A stretch of 64,000 bases of DNA, from contig CALXRI010000016.1 of assembly GCA_944390795.1 (NCBI GenBank), positions 1 through 64,000 of the forward strand, written 5' to 3'. The translations under genes were made by a program, and so were the position numbers. This DNA is from an uncultured Victivallales bacterium (GTDB lineage: Bacteria > Verrucomicrobiota > Lentisphaeria > Victivallales > UBA1829). Below the pieces are notes generated by a model, which was given only the letters and a program-made list of their open reading frames with translations, did not search any database and was not told where the DNA came from. Positions 8,180 to 23,686 of the stretch are shown here, in pieces; the first letter of the stretch is position 1; every line of letters starts with the position of its first letter.

Positions 8180-9382
8180 TTGCTGTTTTTAAAGAGACAT
8201 TATGAAAAGATTCTGCTCGGAACTCTTCTGATTATTTTTATAGTGTTGCTGGTTTTTCAATTCCTGCTCTGGCAGCAGGGACAGAGAATCAAAATCGACG
8301 GTATTCTGGAGTTTACTCCTCCCCCTCCGAATTACACCAGCATAGATTTTGAGGCACAGGAATCACCTTTTAATGTTCTTGCCAATCTGGCGGAAACGCC
8401 TCAGTGGCTGAAATCTGAAAAGCGTCTTCCTTCTTCCGCGATCTATACAGACTTCATGCTCCCCTATCAGATGGCATTCTGTCCTTATTGCCGGAAAATG
8501 ATTCCGGCTGTTGACTTCCCTCCCGTAAATTCCGACCGCGAAGGCCGTTGTTCTCTTTGCCGTCATGTTTTGAAAGCACCTCTTCGGAACAAACTTAATG
8601 TTGTCGTTGATACGGATGAAGATGGTATTCCCGATAAAGACGAGACTGCCCTGGGGATGAATCCGAAAGATCCGAGTGATGCCATGGCTGATTTCGATGA
8701 TGACGGCTTTACCAATTATGAGGAATATGTTGCGGGAACCAAGATCCGGGATCCCAAAAGCCGGCCGCCATATCATCAGAAGATCTCCGTGGTCGGAATC
8801 AGCAAAACGGTTCTCCCGATCACAATCAAATTAATTGATTTCAAGGGGCGGAACGATAAAGAGCAGGCTGATGTTCAAATTGGCATACGCGACCGGAGAG
8901 GCCGTGAGAAGAGCCATTATCTCAAGCTGGGGAAAGCGTTCAACTGCACGGCCGGAACTTTCACTGTGGTCGATATTATCCGTCAGACAGAGATGGTTCC
9001 CATCCGCGGTACAAATATGAAGACGGAAAGAGACAATTCCTATGTCATTCTCCAGAAACGGGGATCGCAGGACCGGATAGAAGCACATCTCAAATCCCGC
9101 GTGACGGAACCCCGGGAAAAGATTTCCCTGCGCCTCGGTTCGCTCAAACGGAATCAGGAGAAAGAGTTTTATGCCGGTGATTCTTTTGAGCTTGGAACCA
9201 ATATGACCGGAATCGAAAAATACACCATTGTTGCACCGGATGCCCAGAAAAAAACTGTTGGTCTGAAGTTTGACAAAGACGGCAAGACATATACGATTTC
9301 CCATAAGCCGCAGATCGCGCTTATCATTGAGCAGAAACGGGCTGTTCCCAAGAATCAGCCGCCACAGCCGAGAAACAGATAG
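8180..9382 (+). CDS. Amuc_1099-like protein with zinc ribbon and calcium-loop repeats
   Basis: A 400-residue protein with one membrane helix (about 11-31) and a periplasmic remainder. Two Cys pairs (C101/C104 and C124/C127) form a likely zinc ribbon. Two DxDxDG loops at 144-155 and 171-182 match thrombospondin type-3-like calcium repeats (TVDTDEDGIPDKDE-type). The remaining ~200 residues are predicted beta-rich. By order it corresponds to Amuc_1099 of the Akkermansia locus, in the place PilP holds in type IV pilus operons. The start is TTG at 8180 with GAGGG upstream; no ATG gives the membrane helix. A role linking the inner-membrane platform to the secretin is inferred. Confidence 0.75.
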   Translation: MLFLKRHYEKILLGTLLIIFIVLLVFQFLLWQQGQRIKIDGILEFTPPPPNYTSIDFEAQESPFNVLANLAETPQWLKSEKRLPSSAIYTDFMLPYQMAFCPYCRKMIPAVDFPPVNSDREGRCSLCRHVLKAPLRNKLNVVVDTDEDGIPDKDETALGMNPKDPSDAMADFDDDGFTNYEEYVAGTKIRDPKSRPPYHQKISVVGISKTVLPITIKLIDFKGRNDKEQADVQIGIRDRRGREKSHYLKLGKAFNCTAGTFTVVDIIRQTEMVPIRGTNMKTERDNSYVILQKRGSQDRIEAHLKSRVTEPREKISLRLGSLKRNQEKEFYAGDSFELGTNMTGIEKYTIVAPDAQKKTVGLKFDKDGKTYTISHKPQIALIIEQKRAVPKNQPPQPRNR

Positions 9383-9403
9383 AAATTAATATAAGGATCA
9401 GCT

Positions 9404-11965
9404 ATGATGAAGGTTGTTATGGAGTTCAGCAGACAGTCTTTCCGGTTGTCGTCATCCGCGATTGTCATATTAACTCTTTTTCTTTTTTCTCTGGAGGCAT
9501 TTTCTCAAAATCAGAAGATTTCTTCCCAGAATGCCCCTTCCGCCTCTCAGGATGCTTTCAAGATGGATCCGTTTGAATTTGAGATTCCCGATGACAATGT
9601 CATGCAGGAGATTCAGTCCCGGAATAACATTCTTGAGCAAAGCGTTTTTCAGCAGGTGAGAATCGGGGACAAGTTTTATTCCGCGAATAATTTTGCTGAC
9701 GCCTTCAGCGCTTATAAACGCGCTTTGGCTATTATCGAGCGCAGCAAGCTCGGCAATGGCACCTATGTGGCATCCGTCAGAAGCAAGATTGAAAAACGGA
9801 TGCTTCAGACCAGGAAACAGTGGGGCATTTCCATCGCCCGTGACGCCAGGAAGATTTATCTGAACGCTTTGACGCAGCAGGAATCTGCCGGAGCGATTGC
9901 CGAATTCAATAAGGCGGAACAGCTTGCCGCATCCGCCCTTCCGATCTATTATGCGGGGAAGACAATTGCCGAGGCGAATTTTGACGATAACACCCTTCTG
10001 AAACTTTCCAAGGACGATCCCTCCTTTTATAACGGGGTGAAGACATTTACTGCGGATTGCAAAAAAATGACCGAGGCCATCCAGTTCCGTGAGGAAACTT
10101 CTCTGGCCGTGGTGGATCCCGATAATAAAAGACGCAAGGAAAATATTGCCGATCTTCTCAAGGAAGCCCAGATTTATTATAAGAAGAAGAAATATGAAAA
10201 GGTTCGGGACAACATGGAAAAAGTGCTTGTTCTTGATCCTTACAACCAGGATGCAATGACCCTGCTCAACAAAACTTATAAGAAATTGTATGATATCGGG
10301 CTTTCTCGACGGGAGAATGACGCCCTGGAAAGAATGGCTGATGTGGAATGGAGATGGAATGAGCCGAGACTGCCGTCCGAAAGTTCCATTGAGGTTGAGG
10401 TTCCCCGCGAGATGACCGGAAGCCGTTCCACTCTGTATGACAAGCTTCAGAAGATTATGATTGATAAAATACTGTTTGAGACAACGGATATCCAGTCAAT
10501 TCTTGCACGTCTGGCTTCCCTCAGCAAGGAGAACGATCCAGAGGGAGTCGGAGTCAGCATCATTCCTCCGCCGGATATTGCGGTCCGTTCCAGAAAGATC
10601 CCGTATCTTGAGCTGGAAAAGGTCCCTTTGCTGGAAGTTTTGAAATACGTTTGCGAACTTGCCGGACTCAAGTATAAAATTGAGGATCGCGCCGTTCTGG
10701 TTGGAACTGACGGAATCGATGATATGGAACATGGCTTCTTTCAGGTGAGGAACTCCCTGATCAACCGGATCGCTGCCGAAGTCGGTCCGAAAGATGAGAA
10801 AAAAGAAGAGAAAACCGGAGGAATTACAGAGCGTGTCGATACGTTTACGGATGAAGGCGCATTTGATGAGGCGGCGCAGGAAATGATTTCCGTTGCGCCG
10901 GTGACTCCGGAAATGCTGAAACAGTTTTTTTCTGCTCGTGGCATTTCCTTCGACGCCCCCAATTCCTCGATTGCGTTTGACACGAAGACGAACAAATTGA
11001 TTGTGAAGAATACTCCTGACAACCTCAGGCGTCTGGATGCGCTGCTGAAAGAGATTGATATTCAGACTCCGCTGGTCCTGATTGAAGCGAAAATCCTTGA
11101 GATTACAATGGAGGCCATTGAGGAACTGGGATTTGACTGGACCTTGACTTATCTCAATACCAATACCAATCAGCGGTTCACCTTCGGCAATCTTCCGACA
11201 TCCGACCTCTACCGCCCATCCAGCGAGGCGAACAACAAGATCATCAACAATTTGAATATCCTTCCGAATTTCGGAAGTGAAAATCAGTTCAATCTGTTTC
11301 TTTCGGTTCGCGCCATCGACCGGACAGACCGGGCGGAAATCATTTCTTCTCCCCGTCTGCTTACTGTATCCGGCATGGAAGCATCTTTAAATGTAGACCA
11401 GCAGCGTTATTTCCCGGATTCCTGGGACGATCCCGAAGTGACGATTGTCAACGGCACTTCCTATACCTACAATCCTCCTGTGCCGGAATTTGAGGAACAG
11501 GCGGTCGGAACTGTTTTCAGTGTGACTCCCACGGTCAGTCCGAACAATTATACGATCATTCTCAAGATGAACAGTGACGTATCGAAGATGACCGGCTGGT
11601 CGAACTACGACTACAGTATTATCATCGGCGGTCTTATGAACAGTCCGGCCGACACGACCCTCGGCAATATTTCACCGAAAATGAAAATGCCTGAATTCTC
11701 CCGCCGAGTCGTGGATACGCAGGTGAAGATCTATGACGGGGAAACCGTTGTAATCGGCGGTATTCTGGAAGACAAAGCTTCCAAGACGGAAGACAAATGG
11801 CCTTTCCTCGGCGATGTTCCGCTGTTCGGCAGGCTTTTCACCAATTCGTTCAGCAACAGTCAGAAAACCAATCTCCTGATTTTTGTGACCGCACGTCTGA
11901 TGAAAGGAAACGGGCTTCCTGTCCGGGATGCCCGGGCACAGGGACTGTTTGAGTTCACCAGATAA
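9404..11965 (+). CDS. Secretin 1 of the pilus-like locus (Amuc_1098-like, PilQ/GspD family)
   Basis: An 853-residue outer-membrane secretin. A signal peptide (about 1-34) is followed by TPR-like helices (about 75-300), an N0-like domain (about 350-445), an N1-type ring domain (about 500-560) and the beta-barrel secretin domain (about 560-840). The family signature VPLFGRLF and then KTNLLIFVTARLM is present near the C-terminus. The TPR stretch before N0 is unlike PilQ and matches the PVC-type secretins. The ribosome site AAGGA lies 7 bases before ATGATG. It should form the multimeric gate for the pilus-like complex. It is followed 17 bases later by a second, diverged secretin. Confidence 0.9.
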   Translation: MMKVVMEFSRQSFRLSSSAIVILTLFLFSLEAFSQNQKISSQNAPSASQDAFKMDPFEFEIPDDNVMQEIQSRNNILEQSVFQQVRIGDKFYSANNFADAFSAYKRALAIIERSKLGNGTYVASVRSKIEKRMLQTRKQWGISIARDARKIYLNALTQQESAGAIAEFNKAEQLAASALPIYYAGKTIAEANFDDNTLLKLSKDDPSFYNGVKTFTADCKKMTEAIQFREETSLAVVDPDNKRRKENIADLLKEAQIYYKKKKYEKVRDNMEKVLVLDPYNQDAMTLLNKTYKKLYDIGLSRRENDALERMADVEWRWNEPRLPSESSIEVEVPREMTGSRSTLYDKLQKIMIDKILFETTDIQSILARLASLSKENDPEGVGVSIIPPPDIAVRSRKIPYLELEKVPLLEVLKYVCELAGLKYKIEDRAVLVGTDGIDDMEHGFFQVRNSLINRIAAEVGPKDEKKEEKTGGITERVDTFTDEGAFDEAAQEMISVAPVTPEMLKQFFSARGISFDAPNSSIAFDTKTNKLIVKNTPDNLRRLDALLKEIDIQTPLVLIEAKILEITMEAIEELGFDWTLTYLNTNTNQRFTFGNLPTSDLYRPSSEANNKIINNLNILPNFGSENQFNLFLSVRAIDRTDRAEIISSPRLLTVSGMEASLNVDQQRYFPDSWDDPEVTIVNGTSYTYNPPVPEFEEQAVGTVFSVTPTVSPNNYTIILKMNSDVSKMTGWSNYDYSIIIGGLMNSPADTTLGNISPKMKMPEFSRRVVDTQVKIYDGETVVIGGILEDKASKTEDKWPFLGDVPLFGRLFTNSFSNSQKTNLLIFVTARLMKGNGLPVRDARAQGLFEFTR

Positions 11966-11982
11966 TTGAGGAATAAGGAACT

Positions 11983-14760
11983 ATGAAGGATAAGATACAT
12001 ACAATGGAGTGCATGACAATGCCTGTGAGACTTCTTCAATTTCTGATACTTGCATCGATTCTGCTTGCATCCGGCAATGTGTCGGCGCAAAATCCTGCCG
12101 ACGGCCGGGAAAAGACAAATGCTTCGCAGGCTTTGTCCTCCGCTGAATTGAGTGAACGGAAGAATGAGTTCAAGAATCGGGAATTTGTCCGTCTTCAGGG
12201 ATCCGAAAAAGAGATTGACCGCCTTGTGGCTGAAGCTGTCAAGTTCTACCAGAATGACGAATTTGACAAGGCAATTGATCTCTATCTGGATGCCAAAGGT
12301 CGCCTTGAAACACTGTACCGGACCAGTAATCTTCCCCGCATCAAAGCCAAGATCGACAACTGTGATCTTTCCATCTCCAAGGCTTACTACTACTGGGCGC
12401 AGAAGATTTACTTCGATGCCGTTAAATCCGCAAAGGTTTCCGACTACGATGCAGCCATTGAAAAATGCAGAAAAGCCATCGAGATTTATCCGCCCTGCAA
12501 GGAAAAAATGGAAAAAATCATTGAGAAATACGAGCTTCTCAAAGGGAAAACACTGGCTGCCGAGAAAATCAAGTCGAATACGGCCGACGATCCGGATGAT
12601 CTCAAGGAAAAACGCATTCTCCTCCGTCAGGGGGAAGTGCTGTACAAGGAAGGTCTCTGGGACAAGGCCCGTTCCAAGTTTGAAGAGGTGATTGCGATAG
12701 ACCCTTATAATGAATTTGCCATTGATTATGTTCGTAAGATCAACATCAAGCTTCTCGAGGCCGGAAAGCGTCGAACCGGTCTTACCAGAAATCAGCGGGC
12801 AGCAGAGGCCATATGGAATCCTGTCACGCCAATTATTCCGATGGACAACGCTGCAAATGCGGCGATTCAGGAAACCGGAGTCGTCAAGGAGACATATGAG
12901 AGCCCGATTACGAAAAAGCTGAAGGAAATCATTATAGACCGGATTGATTTTGAGGATGTGTCCATTGCGACTGCCGCGAAATATCTGAAAGAGCGGAGCA
13001 AGGAAAAGGATCCTGAAAAAGTTGGAGTCAATATTGTTCTGCGCGGCAAGATCAATCAGCCGATTACGGCTGACGGCGATGAGATTCTTGAAGAAGAGGT
13101 GGTCTCGAATGAAGACGAAGGTCCCACGATCCAGCCATTGACAATGATGGTTGACAATATCCCTTTGGAGTCTGCCATCAAATATATCTGCAATCAGGCG
13201 AATTTGAAATACCGTATTGAAAAATATGCCGTGGTGATTGCTTCGCCGGATGTAAAACTTGAAGATGTGGAGACAAAAATCTATCCGATTGAAAAGGATG
13301 TGATTAATCTCGGAACCGATGAAAATATCAAAAGCAGTTTTGAAAACCGGGGCATTTCCTTCCCCGCAGGTGCAGCGATTGTTTATGACGAGTCCATCGG
13401 GCGTTTGATTGTCACGAATACTCCGGAGAATCTTCAAAAGATTGAGAGTATCATCAAGGAGATGAATATTGTCGATCCTCAGGTCCTGATCCAGACAAAG
13501 TTTGTGGAGATTAAACTCAACGATCTTGAGGAACTGGGATTTAAATACAATTTTTCCAGGCAGAATTCCAATGTCTCCAAACTGACTCAGTCCGATTTGA
13601 TTGCCTGGGAATCGGGAACGGATCAGTTCCTTGGAGATAAATATTATAATGTCTATCTCCCGAATACAACAACCGAGTCCATTACCATCGGTGGAGGAAC
13701 TTCCTCCGGGACGGGCGGATCTACCGGAACCGGAACGGGGACCGGTACTGATACCGGAACCGGCACAGATACAGGTTCCGGCAGCGGTTCCGGCAGCGGA
13801 TCCGGTGAAGGCGGCGGAAGTCTTGTCTTTGAGACCACAAAAACCTCCAAATGGCTGGATTATGGAGGAACGATTCGCGGAACCGGCGGTCTTGCCAGCA
13901 ATACCACCGGACAGACCATCTATTATACAAAAGCGCCGCTGCAGGATAAATCCATATCATTCGGGCCGAATGATGACATTATCCGCGTCTTCAACAGTAC
14001 CGGACAGCTGGACAATCCTTCGATTGTCGAAGGTTACGGTGAGTTGTTCAACATGTCATACTACAACAAATACGGTTACAAGCTGGATGCCTCCATTTAC
14101 GCTCTGGACCAGTCGGATGCCACGGATGTGCTTTCCTGTCCCCGCGTTACGACCATGAACGGGCAGGCCGCAACAATTAAAATGGTGACTGAAAAATACT
14201 ATCCGACCGACTGGGAAGAAGCGGAATACAGCGTCATGAGCGGAGGTAACGCGGAAATTCCTGTCTTTATCGGTTCCACGGCGGAACTGGACGAAGCCAC
14301 GGAGGAGGGTATCATCTTTACGGTTACTCCCAATGTCAGTTCCGATAAATACACCATCAATCTTTTCATGCAGCCGCTGGTGCAGAACTTCATCGGCTGG
14401 GACGACTACAGTTATGATGTCCCGATGGATATCAGCATCAACGGCAACAATCAGGTCGTCAACGTCCCGAACACGATGAGAATGCCGATTTTCGAACGCC
14501 GCATGACCAAGACGAATGTCGAATGCACCGACAACGGCACGATTATCATGGGCGGTATGATTCAGGACGAGACTACGACCCTGGATGATGCCTATCCGAT
14601 TCTCGGTGATCTTCCGCTGATCGGACGTCTCTTCCAGTCCAAGGGGCGTGCCGGGGCCAAGAAGAATCTGATGATCTTTCTTTCCTGCCGTCTGGTCAAC
14701 CCCGACGGTTCTCCGCTTCGTGAACGTGAAGATCCCGGTATCCCCTCGTTCCGGAACTGA
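11983..14760 (+). CDS. Secretin 2 of the pilus-like locus, with Gly/Thr/Ser-rich insert
   Basis: A 925-residue paralogue of the preceding secretin with the same plan: signal peptide (about 1-36), TPR-like helices (about 60-270), N0-like domain (about 310-420), N1-type domain (about 430-500) and the C-terminal secretin domain ending in LPLIGRLFQS and KKNLMIFLSCRLV. It differs by an insertion near residues 571-612 made of Gly-Thr, Gly-Ser and Asp-Thr repeats, set in a larger loop (about 535-680) that the first secretin lacks. The ribosome site AAGGA is 5 bases before the ATG at 11983. The two proteins could form a mixed ring or two separate channels; the sequence does not decide. Confidence 0.9.
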   Translation: MKDKIHTMECMTMPVRLLQFLILASILLASGNVSAQNPADGREKTNASQALSSAELSERKNEFKNREFVRLQGSEKEIDRLVAEAVKFYQNDEFDKAIDLYLDAKGRLETLYRTSNLPRIKAKIDNCDLSISKAYYYWAQKIYFDAVKSAKVSDYDAAIEKCRKAIEIYPPCKEKMEKIIEKYELLKGKTLAAEKIKSNTADDPDDLKEKRILLRQGEVLYKEGLWDKARSKFEEVIAIDPYNEFAIDYVRKINIKLLEAGKRRTGLTRNQRAAEAIWNPVTPIIPMDNAANAAIQETGVVKETYESPITKKLKEIIIDRIDFEDVSIATAAKYLKERSKEKDPEKVGVNIVLRGKINQPITADGDEILEEEVVSNEDEGPTIQPLTMMVDNIPLESAIKYICNQANLKYRIEKYAVVIASPDVKLEDVETKIYPIEKDVINLGTDENIKSSFENRGISFPAGAAIVYDESIGRLIVTNTPENLQKIESIIKEMNIVDPQVLIQTKFVEIKLNDLEELGFKYNFSRQNSNVSKLTQSDLIAWESGTDQFLGDKYYNVYLPNTTTESITIGGGTSSGTGGSTGTGTGTGTDTGTGTDTGSGSGSGSGSGEGGGSLVFETTKTSKWLDYGGTIRGTGGLASNTTGQTIYYTKAPLQDKSISFGPNDDIIRVFNSTGQLDNPSIVEGYGELFNMSYYNKYGYKLDASIYALDQSDATDVLSCPRVTTMNGQAATIKMVTEKYYPTDWEEAEYSVMSGGNAEIPVFIGSTAELDEATEEGIIFTVTPNVSSDKYTINLFMQPLVQNFIGWDDYSYDVPMDISINGNNQVVNVPNTMRMPIFERRMTKTNVECTDNGTIIMGGMIQDETTTLDDAYPILGDLPLIGRLFQSKGRAGAKKNLMIFLSCRLVNPDGSPLREREDPGIPSFRN
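13695..13818 (+). repeat. Degenerate in-frame Gly-Thr/Gly-Ser repeat in secretin 2
   Basis: The DNA consists of imperfect 6-base units of the GGAACC, GGTTCC and GATACC types that encode alternating Gly-Thr, Asp-Thr and Gly-Ser dipeptides. Such arrays can change length by slippage, but all units keep frame. It lies in a probable surface or lumen loop of the secretin. Confidence 0.7.
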
Positions 14761-14837: not shown

Positions 14838-15236
14838 ATGTCTGAACCTCCAGGATGGAATGCCCTGAAAGAGCGTCTCTCCCGTTCCAGATTCCGTTCC
14901 CGTTTTCAGCTCGGCACAGCGGAACTGCGGATGATTGCGGAAAACGGCTGGGAAAAAACCGAGCATCAGTGCCGTAAATTCATTCTGACGCGTCTTGCTC
15001 CTGCGGAACCGCTCCACGACGGACGCCAGACTCCCATGCGCGGGCACCCGTGCTTCATTGCACAGCATGCAACGGGTTGCTGCTGCCGTTCCTGTCTGTC
15101 AAAATGGCACGGCATTCCCGCGGGAAAGGCCCTGAGTGCGGCGGAGACGGCCTATCTAGTTTCTGTTTTGATGGCATGGCTCCATGAGCATGCCTCCGGT
15201 GCGGAGAATTTCCCGCACACTCCCGATCTGTTTTGA
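14838..15236 (+). CDS. DUF4186 family protein
   Basis: A 132-residue small soluble protein of unknown function. The family core GHPCFIAQHATGCCCRSCLSKWH is recognisable around residues 68-90; it holds a His/Cys cluster suggestive of metal binding. A strong ribosome site GGGAGG stands 5 bases before the ATG. It follows the secretin operon on the same strand by 78 bases and converges with the minus-strand cluster. I know of no assigned reaction, and the neighbours give no clear hint. Confidence 0.85.
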   Translation: MSEPPGWNALKERLSRSRFRSRFQLGTAELRMIAENGWEKTEHQCRKFILTRLAPAEPLHDGRQTPMRGHPCFIAQHATGCCCRSCLSKWHGIPAGKALSAAETAYLVSVLMAWLHEHASGAENFPHTPDLF

Positions 15237-15247
15237 TGTCTGCGGAA

Positions 15248-15496
15248 TCAGAAGCGTTTCCGTTTGCGGATGAAACAAAGTTCGTTGCATCTCGGGCAGC
15301 GGGTGACATTCTCGCTGTCGTCCTGTGCCAGAAAAGAAAGATGGCAGTTGTCACAGAAATAAAGACGTTCTTTCACTACGGACCAGTCATATGCTTTCTT
15401 CTGACGCATTTCCTGGCGGATCCAGAGGATGGCGAGCACAAGCAGCCAGAAGAAAATATAGATGTAGAAAATATGGAGTTCGGAAATCGGAATCAT
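15248..15496 (-). CDS. Small membrane-anchored zinc-ribbon protein
   Basis: An 82-residue protein with one N-terminal membrane helix (about 8-26), a basic stretch and a C-terminal zinc ribbon made by C48/C51 and C67/C70, ending in a basic tail. The start ATG overlaps the stop of the preceding gene by 4 bases (ATGA), so it is translationally coupled to the TPR-exbB-exbD cluster. GGAGA lies upstream. The family was not recognised. The ribbon would face the cytoplasm if the basic tail obeys the positive-inside rule. Confidence 0.7.
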   Translation of the reverse strand: MIPISELHIFYIYIFFWLLVLAILWIRQEMRQKKAYDWSVVKERLYFCDNCHLSFLAQDDSENVTRCPRCNELCFIRKRKRF

Positions 15497-16278
15497 TTCT
15501 TTGTCTCCGCTTTTGCCGGAACCGGCTTGTTCCAGGTCACAAGAAACAGATTTTGTCCTTTCAGCGCTTTTTCCGCCGCATAAAGTGCAAGCTGGCGTTC
15601 CGCAAGCAGGTCCAGCGCGGTGTTTCCGCAGGAGCGCAGGATCCGGATGAGAGGCGGCATATTTTCTTCTTTTGCGGGAAGATAAGTCAGCATGGTGGCC
15701 GAATCCGCTTTGTTTTTTTCCAGAATCTTCCGGGATGCATCGTCATTGAGGAATAGCCCGTAAAACTGGTTGCCCTTCAGGTCGGACCAGACGGGATATT
15801 GGACTGCTGCGGTTTCCGGATCCTTGATCTGCGGGGTTTTGAGCGGGATTTCCGGTCGGGAGTTCAGAACGGCCAGTTCCCGGACAGGAGCGGATGAATC
15901 GTCCGGGGGGGCGGTCGAAGTTCCCGCAGCAAGATGGAAAAGACCGGGAGAATCCATGCGGGGCTGCTGAAAATCATAGTAACGCATTTCACGGACCAGA
16001 CTGAAGCCATGTTCGTCATTCGGCTTGACAAAGTTTTCCGGTTCCGTGTATTTCAGCCAGTAGTTCAATTGATGGATATCCCTGTCGGCAAGGTCTTCGG
16101 GTTTGCAGATCACAGTATGATGGGAACGGGAACGCAGAGGACGGGAATCCTTCTGGATCGGCTTGAAAAGAAAGAGCAGCATTGCATGAAACATCACGGT
16201 TGCGAAAGCAAGGAGAAGAACCGCTCCCGCAGGGAGATTTCTCTTCTGTTGCATCTGTAATGCGTGTTGCCTTTCCAT
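15493..16278 (-). CDS. Unknown single-pass protein after exbD (TonB-like position)
   Basis: A 261-residue protein with a short basic cytoplasmic start, one membrane helix (about 17-38) and a periplasmic tail rich in Pro, Ser and Asp, especially about 115-165. The topology and position after ExbB and ExbD resemble TonB/TolA-type partners, but no TonB C-terminal motif is evident. The ATG at 16278 is 2 bases after the exbD stop; an upstream TTG at 16284 overlaps that stop and is less likely. I call it unknown; a proton-motive-force-coupled partner is only an inference from context. Confidence 0.65.
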   Translation of the reverse strand: MERQHALQMQQKRNLPAGAVLLLAFATVMFHAMLLFLFKPIQKDSRPLRSRSHHTVICKPEDLADRDIHQLNYWLKYTEPENFVKPNDEHGFSLVREMRYYDFQQPRMDSPGLFHLAAGTSTAPPDDSSAPVRELAVLNSRPEIPLKTPQIKDPETAAVQYPVWSDLKGNQFYGLFLNDDASRKILEKNKADSATMLTYLPAKEENMPPLIRILRSCGNTALDLLAERQLALYAAEKALKGQNLFLVTWNKPVPAKAETKK

Positions 16279-16280
16279 CG

Positions 16281-16742
16281 TCAATTGTCCAGGAAATTTG
16301 TCTGTCGTCCCGTGTCCGCGGGACGAGCGAGCAGAAAGACATTGATTTTCAGTTCATCAGCCAGCGACATGATCTGCGCAAATGTTCCATACTGCGTGTT
16401 CATGTCCGCGCGGATCACGATTGCCGCGTTTTCCCCGAGAGCGGCCACATCGGTCAGAAGTTTGCTTTTCAGCTGATTGAGGTTCTCGACGATTGTGTCA
16501 TTGAAATAGATGTTGCCGTTTCTGTCGATCGTCACGATGTATTTTTTGACGCCGTAAGTTCCGACGATCTTGGCCGTCGGCAGATTTACGGGAATGCCGG
16601 AAACCGGCACAAACGAACTTCCCATCATGAAAAACACGGTCAGAAGGAAAAATATGCTGACGAAGGGAAGCAGCTCGGGAACGCCCTTGATGAGTTTGAC
16701 GCGCGGACGGATACGCGGTGACATGTTATTTTTCATCGGCAT
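16281..16742 (-). CDS. exbD: ExbD/TolR-type proton-channel subunit
   Basis: A 153-residue ExbD/TolR protein with a short basic N-terminus, one membrane helix (about 24-43) and a periplasmic beta domain. It pairs with the ExbB-type protein just upstream to use the proton motive force. The start at 16742 overlaps exbB by 17 bases and has AGAAGG upstream; a second ATG at 16724, one base after the exbB stop, is equally possible. The usual intramembrane Asp of ExbD is not obvious: the helix reads LLPFVSIFFLLTVFFMMGSS, with Glu just before it. This may alter proton coupling. Confidence 0.85.
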   Translation of the reverse strand: MPMKNNMSPRIRPRVKLIKGVPELLPFVSIFFLLTVFFMMGSSFVPVSGIPVNLPTAKIVGTYGVKKYIVTIDRNGNIYFNDTIVENLNQLKSKLLTDVAALGENAAIVIRADMNTQYGTFAQIMSLADELKINVFLLARPADTGRQTNFLDN

Positions 16743-17364
16743 CGCGGCCTTCTCTGTGGTGTTTGAAGAAGTAGATGATTTCAGAAGCGGCTTTTTCCAT
16801 GTCGACGCAGAATGCCTCGACGCGCGTGACGAGATAGTTGTAGGCGATCAGACTCGGAATTGCGACACAGAGTCCCGCCGCCGTGGTCGTGAGGGCAATG
16901 CTGATTCCCCCGGAAAGATCGCCCAGCGTCAGCGAGATGCCCTGTTTCATCTGCATGGCGATGAAGGTTTCCATCATGCCGACGACGGTGCCGAGCAGTC
17001 CGAGCATCGGTGTGACGATGGAAATTGTCGCAAGGATGTTCATCCGGCTTTCCAGACGGGGCAGTTCCACCAGTGCGGCATCGTCAATCGCCCGGCGAAT
17101 ATCGTCGTCGTTCTGGTATGCCTGAATTGCGGCGGTTAGAATTCTGGCGACCGGGCCCGGGGTGTTGTCGCACAGCGTGATCGCCTCGATCATGCCGTCG
17201 CGGCGCAGCACGTTCACCAGGCCGCTGACCAGCTCCTGCACATTCACCTGCGCCCGGTGGAACTGAAACCATTTGGCCAGAAAAATATAAAGCGCAAGCA
17301 GACTGCAAAGCACGATCACCCACATGACAGGTCCGCCGGAAACAATCATATTCCAATACAGCAT
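16726..17364 (-). CDS. exbB: MotA/TolQ/ExbB proton-channel protein
   Basis: A 212-residue protein with three membrane helices (about 10-30, 112-134 and 155-178). The conserved TolQ/ExbB core (ISIVTPMLGLLGTVVGM, then IALTTTAAGLCVAIPS) is clear. It forms the ion-conducting ring with ExbD. A strong GGGAGG ribosome site lies upstream of ATG 17364, and the TPR gene ends 15 bases before. It could serve TonB-type uptake, Tol-Pal-like envelope upkeep, or an adventurous motility-like function; the large TPR neighbour favours an envelope role. Confidence 0.92.
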   Translation of the reverse strand: MLYWNMIVSGGPVMWVIVLCSLLALYIFLAKWFQFHRAQVNVQELVSGLVNVLRRDGMIEAITLCDNTPGPVARILTAAIQAYQNDDDIRRAIDDAALVELPRLESRMNILATISIVTPMLGLLGTVVGMMETFIAMQMKQGISLTLGDLSGGISIALTTTAAGLCVAIPSLIAYNYLVTRVEAFCVDMEKAASEIIYFFKHHREGRDADEK

Positions 17365-17379
17365 ATCAAAATCCTCCCG

Positions 17380-19959
17380 TTATGGATTGAATTTCTGTCT
17401 CTTCAGTTTTTCAAAGCGTTCTTCCGCCGTTTTTCTGTCGATCAGCTTCGCGTCCAGGAGCCAGTGAAGAGCGAATCTCGCATCCTCCACTGTGGAGCGG
17501 AGCGGTTGTCCGGCAGCGATGTCGATCAGCGCCTCCGCCGCTTTCACGCACCAGACAGTTTCCACCGGGCGCAGTTCCGCTTCCGAGGCAGGCAGCTTGT
17601 AGAGCAGCTGTTTGTAATAATCCGCCGCCGCTTCCTCGTTTTCCAGTTTGCCCACGCAGCGTCCGATTTTGTAGGTGGCCATCATTTGCAGCTGCGGCGG
17701 GCAGTTTTCCAGTTCCAGAAGTTTCCGGTAACAGGAGACCGCAAGATTGAGTTCCTCGCGCGGACGGCTGCTTCCGGAGGTGGCAATTGCAAACATGCAG
17801 TCGCCGATGGAACCGAGCGCGGCGCATTCAATAATGGATCCGGGTCGGGTTTTTGCCGCCTTGCGGTAATAGGGAATTGCCGCGGAAAAGTCGCCGTCTT
17901 CCCGGAGAATGTCGCCGTGAAGGTAGTAGGCGTCTCCGATGCAGCTGGTTTCCGGGAAGCGTTCATAAAGTTCATTCAGAAGTTTGAGCGCGGCGCTGAA
18001 CTCTTTGTTCCTGTAGTGCTGAAGCGCCTTTTCAAAAACGGCGCGCGCCTGGATTTGCGGGAATTTGTCATTTTTCATCAGTCTGTTGAGAGCGGCTTCC
18101 GCACGGGAGGACGAACCCGTGTCGGCATAACGGGAGGCCAGACGGAAAATCGCATTGACCGCATACTCGGAATCCGGAAAACGTTCGGCAAGGAGCCAGG
18201 TCTCCCGTTCCGCGGAGATCTCGTCGCCCATGCTGTAATACACGTGGATCAGCCAGAAGGCCGCCCTCGGAGCCAGGTCGTCTTTCGGATATTCCCGGAT
18301 CAGGCGGGCATACAGCGCAGCGGCTGATCCGGGGTCTTTTGAGGAAAACGCCAGCGACGCCGCATTATACAGGGCCTGGGGGAGGAGGTCGTTTCCCTTT
18401 TTTGCCGCATCCAGAAAGCTGCCGTAGACTTTCCGCGCCTCATCGAACAGGCCTTTCTGTTCATCCGCCGCCGCTTCCAGAAACAGGAGATTGGTTTTTT
18501 CCGGTTCTGGCGGACTGCATTTTTTCAAGTCCTTCAGCAGTGCGAGCGTTTTATCCGGCTCTTTTGCGTCCAGTGCGGCCGCTGCGGCAAGGTAAAGAGC
18601 CTTCGGCGCTTGTGACGGCCATTTTCCGGCAATTGCCCGGTAGACGTCAATGCACCGGTCAGTTTCTTTCCGTAAGGCAAGCACTTCGGCAATCAGAAAT
18701 TCCCCTTCGGATTCCGCCGTTCCCGCATAATGCGAACGGATCCGTTTTTCCGCCGCCTGAAGCCCTTCGGGGGTTTGCTGGAGCATGGCATAACGCCGGA
18801 GCGCTTCGCGTTTCTTTGCCGGAGCCGTGCTGATGTTCGAGTAGACGGATTCGTAAAGCTGAAGAGCGGCATCCGGATTGCCGGCTTCTTCCAGCAGGCG
18901 CGCCGTATTGAGTTTTGTATCCGCGCCGACAAGGGAATGCTTGAACAGCTCAAGCTGTTTCATGGCCAGAGCCGCGGCCTGTTTTTTATCTCCGATCCGT
19001 GAGAAAACCCGGATGATCCGTTCCAGGGTGTCGAAGGCTTCCCGGTTGTCGGCCGCGGCATGAAACGCCGCGCGGTAGGAATCCAGCGAGAGCGTGTATT
19101 TTCTTGCGGCCGCGAATGCGTCCGCATAAGAGGAGGCCACGATGTAAAGAAGCGGGTCCTTTCCCCGGCTTCCGTTCAGATCGCGGAGCAGCGCCTGCCA
19201 TGCGCCCGCGGCGGCTTCCGCGCCTTCGGCTTTCAGCAGAATATAAGCGTTCAGCAGACGGTATGCGGCGAAATCCCCGGCATTGGAATTGGCCGGATAG
19301 GAGAGCAGGAGGGCCAGCGCCCGTTTCGGCTCATCCGCTGCCGCCGTGCAGAGAACGCCGCGTTCAAAAGCCAGCTTTCCCAGCGGCGAGGCGCCTGTCT
19401 GGCGATAGAGAATGTCGTAGACTTTCGCGGCTGACTGATAGGCTTTCAGACGTTCCAGAACAAACGCGTAGGAGAACAGCGTCCGGATTCTGCGGGGATC
19501 CTTTGCCGACAGTCCGGGAAGAATCCGCTCATAAATTTTCCGGGCGTCCTCGTAGCGTCCCCGCTGGGAGAGAATATCGCCGCGCCACATGGTGATCGAG
19601 AGCGGATTTGCGCCGGGAAAGGCGGTTTCAAAGTCCTGCAGCGTTTTTTCCGCAAGGTCCGGCATGCGGCCGAGCACCAGCGCGTCGATCAGACGCTCGT
19701 AGGCGTCGCGCATGGTATCCGGACTGCCGATCTTCCTGGCATCCTCCAGATATCTGCCGTAGAAACTTGCCGCGACCGCATAATCCTTTGCAGCGAATGC
19801 ACGGTCTCCTGCCTTCCGGTCCCGGGATTCCGCCTCCATGACTGCGTTGAATACATCAGAGGCAGGATTGAACTGGGCGCACAGCGGCAGAGCCGCGCTG
19901 ACAAACCCCAGCGCGGCAATGACGGCGAGAGAACCCTGTTTCCCTGCGTGACGTTTCAC
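17380..19959 (-). CDS. Large exported TPR-repeat protein
   Basis: An 859-residue protein with a signal peptide (about 1-28) and tetratricopeptide repeats almost to the end. Units such as AAKVYDILYRQTG, ALYARLIREYP and AIPYYRKAAKTRPG recur at ~34-39 residue spacing. The start is GTG at 19959, six bases after AAGGAG. It precedes exbB by 15 bases in the same operon, recalling CpoB/YbgF next to Tol genes in other bacteria, but it is far longer. A periplasmic scaffold for the ExbB/ExbD energy system is inferred. The gap to recA is 51 bases, so the cluster may be read from the gyrB-recA transcript. Confidence 0.85.
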   Translation of the reverse strand: MKRHAGKQGSLAVIAALGFVSAALPLCAQFNPASDVFNAVMEAESRDRKAGDRAFAAKDYAVAASFYGRYLEDARKIGSPDTMRDAYERLIDALVLGRMPDLAEKTLQDFETAFPGANPLSITMWRGDILSQRGRYEDARKIYERILPGLSAKDPRRIRTLFSYAFVLERLKAYQSAAKVYDILYRQTGASPLGKLAFERGVLCTAAADEPKRALALLLSYPANSNAGDFAAYRLLNAYILLKAEGAEAAAGAWQALLRDLNGSRGKDPLLYIVASSYADAFAAARKYTLSLDSYRAAFHAAADNREAFDTLERIIRVFSRIGDKKQAAALAMKQLELFKHSLVGADTKLNTARLLEEAGNPDAALQLYESVYSNISTAPAKKREALRRYAMLQQTPEGLQAAEKRIRSHYAGTAESEGEFLIAEVLALRKETDRCIDVYRAIAGKWPSQAPKALYLAAAAALDAKEPDKTLALLKDLKKCSPPEPEKTNLLFLEAAADEQKGLFDEARKVYGSFLDAAKKGNDLLPQALYNAASLAFSSKDPGSAAALYARLIREYPKDDLAPRAAFWLIHVYYSMGDEISAERETWLLAERFPDSEYAVNAIFRLASRYADTGSSSRAEAALNRLMKNDKFPQIQARAVFEKALQHYRNKEFSAALKLLNELYERFPETSCIGDAYYLHGDILREDGDFSAAIPYYRKAAKTRPGSIIECAALGSIGDCMFAIATSGSSRPREELNLAVSCYRKLLELENCPPQLQMMATYKIGRCVGKLENEEAAADYYKQLLYKLPASEAELRPVETVWCVKAAEALIDIAAGQPLRSTVEDARFALHWLLDAKLIDRKTAEERFEKLKRQKFNP

Positions 19960-20010: not shown

Positions 20011-21153
20011 TTAAGCCCTGGCTTCCGGTTCCGGCGCCGCATCCTGTGCGGCATTTGCGCCTTCCTGCGCGGCTCCCTCGGTTTTTGTCGCGCCCTGTGC
20101 GGCCGCCTTGCGTTCGGCAAGCACGGCTTTGATTCTGGAAAGAATCTTTTCCTCGAGTTCGTGATCCTCCTGAAGGAGCGCCTTCACGGCTTCGCGGCCC
20201 TGGGCGAGCTGTTCGCCTTCGAACGCAAACCAGGAGCCGCGTTTTTCAATCAGTCCGAGATCGCTTCCGACATCGATGATCGAGCCGACGCGGGAGATTC
20301 CCTCGTTCCAGTTGATGTCGAATTCCGCGCTCTTGAACGGAGGCGCGAGCTTGTTCTTGACGACCTTGACCTTGGTGCGCGCTCCGTTCGGTTCGCCCGC
20401 GGCGTCCTTGAGCGTGCCGATGCGGCGGATGTCAAGACGGATGGAACTGTAGAACTTCATCGCGTTGCCGCCGGTGGTGGTTTCGGGACTTCCGAACATC
20501 ACACCGATTTTTTCGCGGATCTGGTTGGTGAAGATGACGCAGGTCCTGCTGCGGTTCACCGCGCCGGTGATCTTGCGGAGAGCCTGCGACATCATGCGCG
20601 CCTGCAGCCCCATGAACGAGTCGCCGACCTGCCCGTCGAATTCCGCCTTCGGAACGAGCGCCGCCACGGAATCGATCACGACGACATCCACGGAATTGCT
20701 GCGGATCAGCGTGTCGGCGATGTTCAGCGCGTCTTCGCCGCAGTCGGGCTGGGAGATCAGAAGGTTGTCAATGTTCACTCCGATCTTGCGTGCATACTGC
20801 GGATCGACCGCGTGCTCCGCGTCGATGATCGCCGCCACGCCGCCCGCCTTCTGGGCATTGGCGATGACATGCATGCAGAGCGTCGTTTTTCCGGAGGATT
20901 CCGGGCCGAAGATTTCGATGATCCGCCCGCGGGGAAGCCCCATGATTCCGAGCGCGATGTCGAGCGAGAGCGCGCCGGTGCTGATGACGGGGACGTCGAC
21001 GGCGGAGTTGTCGCCGAGACGCATGATCGCGCCCTTGCCGTATTCCTTCTCAATCTGACCGAGAGCGATTCCGAGGTTCTTCGCCCGGGCTTCCGCCGGA
21101 CTGACCGCCTGAGCGGCGGACTTTGCCGCTTTCGATTCCTTGTCTGCTGCCAT
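20011..21153 (-). CDS. recA: RecA recombinase
   Basis: The 380-residue recombinase for homologous recombination and SOS signalling. The Walker A motif GPESSGKT, the NLLISQPD region and the Walker [13 protein letters not shown] are intact, as are loops L1 ([18 protein letters not shown]) and L2. The C-terminal ~45 residues are Ala/Glu-rich and acidic overall. The frame is open upstream into gyrB, but the ATG at 21153 has AAGGAG 8 bases away and matches the usual RecA start. It lies 43 bases after gyrB on the same strand, an uncommon pairing. A 15-base palindrome sits in the gap. Confidence 0.98.
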
Positions 21154-21165
21154 GTGATATGCTCC

Positions 21166-21180
21166 TTGAAGAATTTTCAA
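21166..21180 (-). promoter_or_regulatory. Palindrome in the gyrB-recA gap, possible operator
   Basis: TTGAA and TTCAA flank five bases directly before the recA ribosome site. It could be an SOS (LexA-type) operator or a small mRNA hairpin. It does not match the E. coli (CTGT-N8-ACAG) or Bacillus (GAAC-N4-GTTC) LexA boxes, so this is a guess. Confidence 0.25.
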
Positions 21181-21196
21181 TTCTGTTTTCTGCGGA

Positions 21197-23686
<2,490 letters not shown>

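Follow-up and report, generated by a model that had tools for sequence, protein, structure and literature searches.

A five-gene Ton/Tol-like operon of the Lentisphaeria with an ExbD devoid of the proton-binding aspartate

The 64,000-nucleotide stretch of an uncultured Victivallales bacterium analyzed here (Verrucomicrobiota, Lentisphaeria; assembly GCA_944390795.1, contig CALXRI010000016.1; hereafter the window) carries five tightly packed genes on the reverse strand (15248-19959), encoding in this order a tetratricopeptide repeat (TPR) protein, an ExbB/TolQ-like protein, an ExbD/TolR-like protein, a probable distant relative of TonB/TolA (P4) and a small zinc-ribbon membrane protein (P5). 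The ExbD of this operon has a serine in place of the proton-binding aspartate (Asp), and the same position is devoid of Asp in a large share of the related operons, in a pattern that recurs along their phylogeny. The explanation that we favor, and to which we give an even chance of being right, is that a trans-envelope complex derived from Ton/Tol systems has repeatedly lost its proton coupling and persists as an unpowered scaffold.

A preliminary description, made from the sequence of the window alone, had proposed a five-gene operon at this place, with a large periplasmic TPR protein ahead of an ExbB/ExbD pair whose ExbD helix seemed to lack the intramembrane Asp, and each of these proposals was borne out, the periplasmic location of the TPR protein as a probable one. 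The TPR and ExbB genes are separated by 15 bp, those of ExbB and ExbD overlap by 17 bp, ExbD and P4 lie 2 bp apart and P4 and P5 overlap by 4 bp. ExbB (212 aa; 16726..17364, - strand) and ExbD (153 aa; 16281..16742, -) are true members of their families, with matches to PF01618 (E=1.4e-31; 109.3 bits for a cut-off of 22.9) and PF02472 (E=1.9e-17; 64 bits for a cut-off of 25.4), respectively. ExbB has Thr126 and Thr161, the equivalents of the Thr ring residues T148 and T181 of Escherichia coli, the numbering of which is used below. The best NCBIfam models are TolQ for ExbB (104.6 bits, cut-off 221) and TolR for ExbD (48.8 bits, cut-off 127.3), and since these scores lie far under the cut-offs the two proteins are not TolQ/TolR equivalogs.

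Ser29 of ExbD, encoded by the codon AGC at 16656..16658 (-), occupies the position at which E. coli ExbD has its proton-binding Asp25. No gap interrupts the helix block when 40 ExbD proteins are aligned, and the assignment of Ser29 to the Asp25 position follows from the alignment of the same profile, across the block NVTPFIDV, with E. coli ExbD (6tyi) and with another ExbD chain (7ajq). None of the alignments made placed the proton-binding Asp elsewhere in the helix; locus L067 was excluded from the ExbD alignment A1, as its start ran far upstream. Asp25 of ExbD, or its equivalent Asp23 in TolR, is called essential in passages of three publications (PMC6778125, PMC12215075, PMC12905483). Neither a related system nor an Asp-less ExbD turned up among the titles and abstract starts of the open-licence literature, and a search for an Akkermansia mucin locus retrieved no corresponding paper.

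The window's family is represented by 36 genomes, and the operon ExbD was readable in 35 of them, the window's own included; none of the 35 has the Asp, which is replaced by Cys (15 genomes), Ser (13), Asn (4) or Gly (3). An absence shared in this way is not an assembly error. The remaining family genome (G005) yielded no operon ExbD. At a larger scale, ExbD was found in 60 of the 61 genomes of the window's genus, family and order, 43 of them without and 17 with Asp. Long stretches were examined for 40 of these genomes, giving 41 operons with the window; 19 order genomes were read from short loci only and, except for G030 (locus L079), left out of the tree presented below. Among the order genomes read later and lying outside the window's family, G043 and G049 (Asn) and G044 (Gly) are Asp-less and G037, G038 and G057 are Asp-bearing.

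A set covering a wider range of lineages was drawn from 129 scanned stretches, 16 of which were dropped for having no ExbB-ExbD pair. The 113 pairs obtained comprise 111 unique operons; the two duplicates (L232 and L277) are excluded from this count, but included in the 113-row counts for the Thr ring and Thr181 and in the analysis of the P4 histidine. Asp is present in 60 of the 111 unique operons and replaced in 51, by Asn (21), Ser (14), Cys (7), Gly (6), Ala (2) or Thr (1). On a tree of ExbB and ExbD computed with the trait columns removed, the state of this site changes 18 times, compared with a mean of 37.0 and a minimum of 30 in 100 label shuffles. The tree is a quick one, in which 34 of the 108 inner branches are open, and the counts of changes do not separate gain from loss. 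From the presence of Asp in paralogues and distant relatives, we infer that the direction of change was loss. The window's family forms a single clade of 23 rows on this tree (98 in the Shimodaira-Hasegawa-like approximate likelihood ratio test) with no Asp in any row.

The other ExbD copies provide the controls. Asp is kept in all 61 ExbD paralogues read, and in particular in the canonical TolR paralogue at 30 of 30 loci of the window's family; the operon copy could be read in 29 of these 30 genomes, all but G005, and had no Asp in any of them. When 13 Asp-less genomes, one of them from the window's family, were searched for every ExbD, 44 matches were obtained, and the 13 operon copies were all Asp-less and the 31 others all Asp-bearing. 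Genome G089, a single contig of 0.9 Mb with two ExbD genes, retains an Asp-less copy along with an Asp-bearing one. The controls therefore indicate that it is mainly this operon that has lost the Asp, and that neither the organisms nor the method can account for the loss. Named genomes, when scanned, also provided 51 ExbB-ExbD loci of more distant relationship (L107-L157), of which 46 have the Asp and five do not (L111, L113, L121, L123 and L149, in records titled Verrucomicrobia, Kiritimatiellae or Akkermansia). Only L113 was taken into the operon set; the ExbD of the other four has Thr or Asn at the Asp site and, as these loci lie outside the set, Asp-less ExbD may also occur in other copies of the Planctomycetes-Verrucomicrobia-Chlamydiae (PVC) group.

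The Asp-bearing paralogues are the basis of the main rival explanation, that of a borrowed power: the Asp-less ExbD would pair with an Asp-bearing ExbD or TolR, or the ring would work beside canonical TolQR, with the proton site on one subunit of the pair only. Such a paralogue is available in all 30 family genomes in which the TolR locus was read and in 11 of the 13 Asp-less genomes searched for all ExbD, and unlike pairs of tolR-like genes are reported in passages on a sister PVC system (PMC12204202). However, no ExbD other than the Asp-less operon copy was found in G043 and G023, genomes that are 80% and 56% complete and in which another copy may be missed. Among the order genomes, canonical TolR was not found in 2 of the 43 without the Asp and in 3 of the 17 with it (p=0.13, weakened from p=0.07 on 47 genomes when 60 were considered), and the adjoining of one ExbB and one ExbD with overlapping frames favors a self-contained pair. 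The reading of G043 led us to rate the borrowing of power slightly lower, and we consider it unlikely.

The ratio of nonsynonymous to synonymous substitution rates (dN/dS) within the window's genus is 0.009-0.041 for ExbB, 0.032-0.146 for ExbD, 0.018-0.082 for P5, 0.106-0.122 for the TPR protein and 0.118-0.253 for P4. ExbB and ExbD are thus under purifying selection and are not decaying. This bears on another explanation, according to which the operon is a vestige on its way out, kept through linkage to recA and gyrB. The recurrent loss of a key residue would fit it, as would the higher variability of Thr181 where the Asp is lost, the separation of P4-P5 from ExbB-ExbD in two genomes of one family and an in-frame stop near the beginning of one family match (G021), which lies outside the part read (from position 13 on). 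On the other side stand the strong purifying selection, the invariance of the periplasmic ExbD residues D79, K89, R108 and D110 across all 22 family rows, and the persistence of the operon through the whole family and in the 0.9-Mb genome. Decay was rejected as unlikely on the dN/dS values, and we hold a vestigial operon to be highly improbable.

P4 (261 aa; 15493..16278, -) starts with an ATG at 16278, a TTG at 16284 being possible. It had been described as sitting in the TonB/TolA position without a TonB domain. At the level of sequence this description stands, as P4 is not a standard TonB and has no match in Pfam, PF03544 and PF13103 at cut-off included, or in NCBIfam; at the level of the predicted fold it does not. 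The relatives of P4 give faint signals: TonB_2 was matched in two of 41 (best E=0.012) and TonB_C in one (E=0.059), the P4 profile has two matches at E<=1 among PDB sequences, both of them TonB (E=0.036 and 0.054), and the fourth gene of the Omnitrophota operon matches TonB_C with E=3.1e-4 and 21.6 bits, under the cut-off of 24.6. A PHROGs search gave nothing useful. The transmembrane helix (residues 17-37; 16168..16230, -) contains Thr27-xxx-His31, with Thr for the Ser of the membrane-helix Ser-xxx-His of TonB/TolA, known as the SHLS motif in passages of PMC12204202 and PMC12215075. A membrane His near the helix occurs in 78 of 105 operon rows according to a crude script. The AlphaFold2 model of P4 (41 rows; mean predicted local distance difference test score 76.9) comprises this helix and a confident C-terminal domain (CTD; residues 163-248; 15535..15792, -), whose predicted fold resembles the TonB/TolA CTD. 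When realigned with VIA-align, the best eight of 990 chains were all TonB/TolA CTDs (Z 4.2-6.0). For the P4 of an Asp-bearing relative, modeled from 28 rows with a mean score of 72.9, the ten top chains of 993 were TonB/TolA domains (Z 4.0-5.6), and an unrelated chain also reached 4.0. Alignments A5 and A6 used 28 of 41 P4 rows and 24 of 31, respectively. Because these modest signals of fold, sequence and helix motif agree, P4 is most likely a far-diverged TonB/TolA-like protein beyond the reach of Pfam. Its interpretation as an unrelated protein was rejected, as the fold and the weak sequence signals favor TonB/TolA.

The TPR protein (859 aa; 17380..19959, -) begins with a predicted Sec-type signal segment and matches TPR_16 (E=4.4e-21) among other Pfam families. 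It is probably periplasmic: with a crude script, a hydrophobic stretch near the start was found in 75 of 83 homologues and a lipobox-like motif in two of 83. Its score of 109.1 bits against TIGR02795 (tol_pal_ybgF; cut-off 90.1) is probably inflated by its many repeats. P5 (82 aa; 15248..15496, -) has one predicted membrane helix and a four-Cys zinc ribbon, in which Cys48, 51, 67 and 70 are invariant in 38 of 38 aligned homologues. In G036 (locus L073, 6443-6903), P5 is present in two tandem copies at the operon end.

Among the 111 unique operons, no acid column is gained inside the helix cores of ExbB or ExbD in the Asp-less rows, and a compensating acid in these cores was rejected on this basis. 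With the ExbD Asp gone and no acid taking its place there, the evidence speaks against the proton-driven machine that the preliminary description had envisaged, as far as the window's genome is concerned. Its broader proposal of a distinct envelope machine gains support from the conservation of the same five-gene order across PVC lineages, and from the receptor plug and TolB_N domains, each of which was not found in 60 of the 61 order genomes.

We propose that the operon products make up an inner-membrane complex of the Ton/Tol type, in which a ring of ExbB would surround a pair of ExbD in a putative 5:2 assembly, the structure models made here being of single chains. P4 would be bound beside the ring through its membrane helix and would reach into the periplasm, where the secreted TPR protein may be the partner of the complex, and P5 would be a small membrane subunit with its zinc ribbon probably on the cytoplasmic side. 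Operon copies with the Asp would be proton-driven. The Asp would have been lost once, and early, in the window's family, and the same loss would have happened many times elsewhere. A neutral residue at this site could mimic the protonated form and thereby stop the ion-driven cycling. As the Asn form of MotB alters the structure little according to passages of PMC9389320, the Asp-less assembly could survive while cycling stops. The complex would thus have been kept as a passive trans-envelope strut or scaffold, which would hold P4 and the TPR protein between the inner membrane and the cell wall or outer membrane.

Several observations weigh against this scaffold. The loss of proton conduction in the Asp-less complex is itself what we infer from sequence. 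ExbB is very strongly conserved, beyond what a mere anchor might need, and 110 of 111 operons retain Thr148, which would suggest a pore that is still of importance, the single replacement occurring in an Asp-less genome. Of the 113 rows, Thr181 is replaced in 12 of the 52 that are Asp-less and in 2 of the 61 that are Asp-bearing (Fisher p=0.003), but this association is not significant when the tree is taken into account (14 supported pairs, sign test median p 0.125). Nor is there a matching decay of the coupling helix, the P4 membrane His being lost in 11 of 48 Asp-less versus 16 of 57 Asp-bearing rows (p=0.66, crude script), so that a His loss tracking the Asp loss was rejected. In another Asp-less genus, the dN/dS of the ExbD frame is 0.19-0.39, for a frame that includes about 80 upstream codons foreign to ExbD. 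Charged residues at helix ends are more frequent among the Asp-less rows, with ExbD alignment position 45 charged in 7 of 51 Asp-less versus 0 of 60 Asp-bearing operons and an acid at ExbB 184 in 6 of 51 versus 0 of 60; within the family, 19 of 22 rows have an acid at E132 of ExbB, close to where helix 2 ends on the outer side, and such an acid also occurs in Asp-bearing rows. With regard to P4, Foldseek retrieved nothing from the PDB at E<=0.001 for its model, the fold scores are modest (Z at most 6.0) and the hhalign comparison with the genome's own TonB-like family is weak (probability 3.6).

Some of these points would suit an ion site of another kind, with a pore Ser, Asn, Thr or Cys binding an ion together with the Thr ring or a residue of P4 or P5, or protons passing without any acid. 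The replacements are mostly polar (Ser, Thr, Asn or Cys in 43 of 51) and Cys could titrate, and the retention of Thr148, the selection on ExbB and the helix-end charges commoner in Asp-less rows are all in line with such a site. Conversely, Gly (6) and Ala (2) are found as well, Ser, Asn, Cys and Gly interchange within one family, the helix cores hold no compensating column of acid, His or Lys, and the literature passages cited above call Asp25 and Asp23 essential in E. coli ExbD and TolR. This explanation appears rather improbable to us.

The scaffold reading can be carried further, into a proposal that we put forward tentatively, with somewhat less than an even chance of being correct: the operon would represent a "pseudo-motor" branch of the 5:2 ion-driven family, in which a PVC-wide Ton/Tol-like complex gave up proton coupling in some twelve or more independent events, being retained after each of them for an older structural task needing no power, such as to brace the envelope, or to sense across it, by means of a TonB-like strut and the TPR protein. 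If this is true, the proton-driven stroke would be an optional feature of the assembly and not its reason to exist. The Asp of ExbD, TolR and MotB is regarded as the central element of the 5:2 motors, and closely related operons that are divided about evenly by its presence or absence constitute a natural test of the role of the proton in work, gating or assembly. They also make it possible to ask what Ton/Tol complexes do where no receptor and no TolB are found, and call for caution before annotating every ExbBD pair as a proton-driven energizer.

The conservation of the gene order was confirmed at the order level, where all five genes lie within the stretch in 34 of 41 operons, the window included; in the seven others TPR or P5 is missing within the stretch, two of these being on contigs shorter than 6 kb. 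The operon is present in Lentisphaeria, and when named genomes were scanned with the ExbB alignment, relatives came up in records bearing the titles Kiritimatiellae, Pontiella, Verrucomicrobia, Omnitrophota and Hydrogenedentota; the names Akkermansia and Chthoniobacter come from the titles of metagenome-bin records and are possibly incorrect. Of 288 genomes in a sample of the phylum, 151 had a match to the P5 family, in some cases to a solitary gene with no operon around it. At L262, L267, L268, L274, L276 and L279, P5-like genes for zinc-ribbon membrane proteins stand by themselves, outside any such operon, next to apparent housekeeping genes. Two loci (L257 and L261, in G114 and G250) carry P4-like and P5 genes together with no adjoining ExbB-ExbD, and G250 has an ExbB-ExbD pair with Asn at the Asp site on another contig than these genes. 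On contig C18 of the window's genome (L077, 5889-6497, -), a 202-aa MotA/ExbB-like protein with no adjoining ExbD match is followed by a 113-aa single-helix protein.

The gene directly upstream of the operon is recA (20011..21228, -), itself preceded by gyrB (21197..23683, -); they are found upstream in 41 and 34 of 87 loci, respectively, and guaA is downstream in nine. Apart from these three, no real neighbor family occurs in more than 6 of the 87 loci. The operon thus appears to be a vertically inherited core locus. On the forward strand of the window, two TPR-secretin genes (8180-14760) are related to the Amuc_1098 family, below its cut-off, and are preceded by an Amuc_1099-like gene (49.4 bits, cut-off 50). 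They probably belong to a type IV pilus cluster convergent with the operon, and a gene for a DUF4186 protein (14838-15236, +; PF13811, E=7.2e-44) is located between the two.

A comparison with known systems sets the operon apart from the standard ones. The receptor plug domain (PF07715) was not found in 60 of the 61 order genomes, the window's own included, with a sole match in G039; TolB_N (PF04052) was likewise not found in 60 of the 61, again including the window's own, with a sole match in G052 (E=3.3e-4), although a TolB of strongly diverged sequence may have escaped this search. In the controls, each of the two domains was detected in 3 of 14 genomes. These domains are thus missing although ExbBD-type motors are kept, an energizer of TonB-dependent receptors was rejected on the plug result, and the complex probably serves neither such receptors nor TolB. 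The idea of a fully standard Ton or Tol-Pal system whose partners escaped the searches draws on the ExbB and ExbD scores, which are best against the TolQ and TolR models though far below cut-off, on the TPR protein scoring above the YbgF cut-off and on the TonB/TolA-like fold of P4. It is contradicted by the two domain searches with their controls, by the Asp missing from ExbD and by a separate canonical TolQ-TolR-TonB-like locus in the window's genome (contig C1), the third protein of which is a clear TonB_2 match; we regard it as very unlikely.

The operon shares with GldLM/PorLM a 5:2-type motor with an unusual ion site. In GldLM the proton-binding acid is in the ring protein GldL, whereas the window-type operon gains no acid in the helix cores of ExbB. 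Its likeness to the Ton system lies in the ExbB and ExbD homologues and in P4, with a single N-terminal helix bearing (S/T)xxxH and a TonB-CTD-like predicted fold; it differs by the lack of Asp25 in the ExbD of the window, the TPR and zinc-ribbon partners, the divergence of P4 beyond Pfam and the receptor plug not found in 60 of 61 order genomes. Tol-Pal (TolQ-TolR-TolA-TolB-Pal-CpoB/YbgF) resembles it through the best, below-cut-off NCBIfam equivalogs and the TPR protein in the operon, but here there is no equivalent of Asp23, TolB_N was not found in 60 of 61 genomes and no Pal is encoded in the operon, no genome search for Pal having been made.

In Fibrobacter succinogenes, TPR genes are also near genes of the ExbB, ExbD and TonB families (FSU_2397-2403), for which the authors were unable to identify a MalA-like outer-membrane protein according to passages of PMC6851124; that cluster differs by its ExbB-ExbD-ExbD-TonB order, with two ExbD, and no zinc-ribbon gene is seen in these passages. 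The nearest published system encountered is that of the PVC force transducers encoded by TPR-tolQ-tolR-tolR-vWA genes, as presented in passages of PMC12204202, with no mention of Lentisphaer- or Kiritimat- in the available text. There too, a TPR gene is followed by tolQ-like and tolR-like genes and by a transducer of TonB-like topology, with a function described as unknown. P4 of the window has no vWA match in Pfam, and no vWA domain is among the fold rows of either P4 model, where an absence carries no weight. The published transducers, as far as these passages go, have a vWA end and two tolR-like genes, whereas the operon of the window has a single ExbD between ExbB and P4, and is distinguished by its TonB/TolA-CTD-like domain, its zinc-ribbon gene and its Asp-less ExbD.

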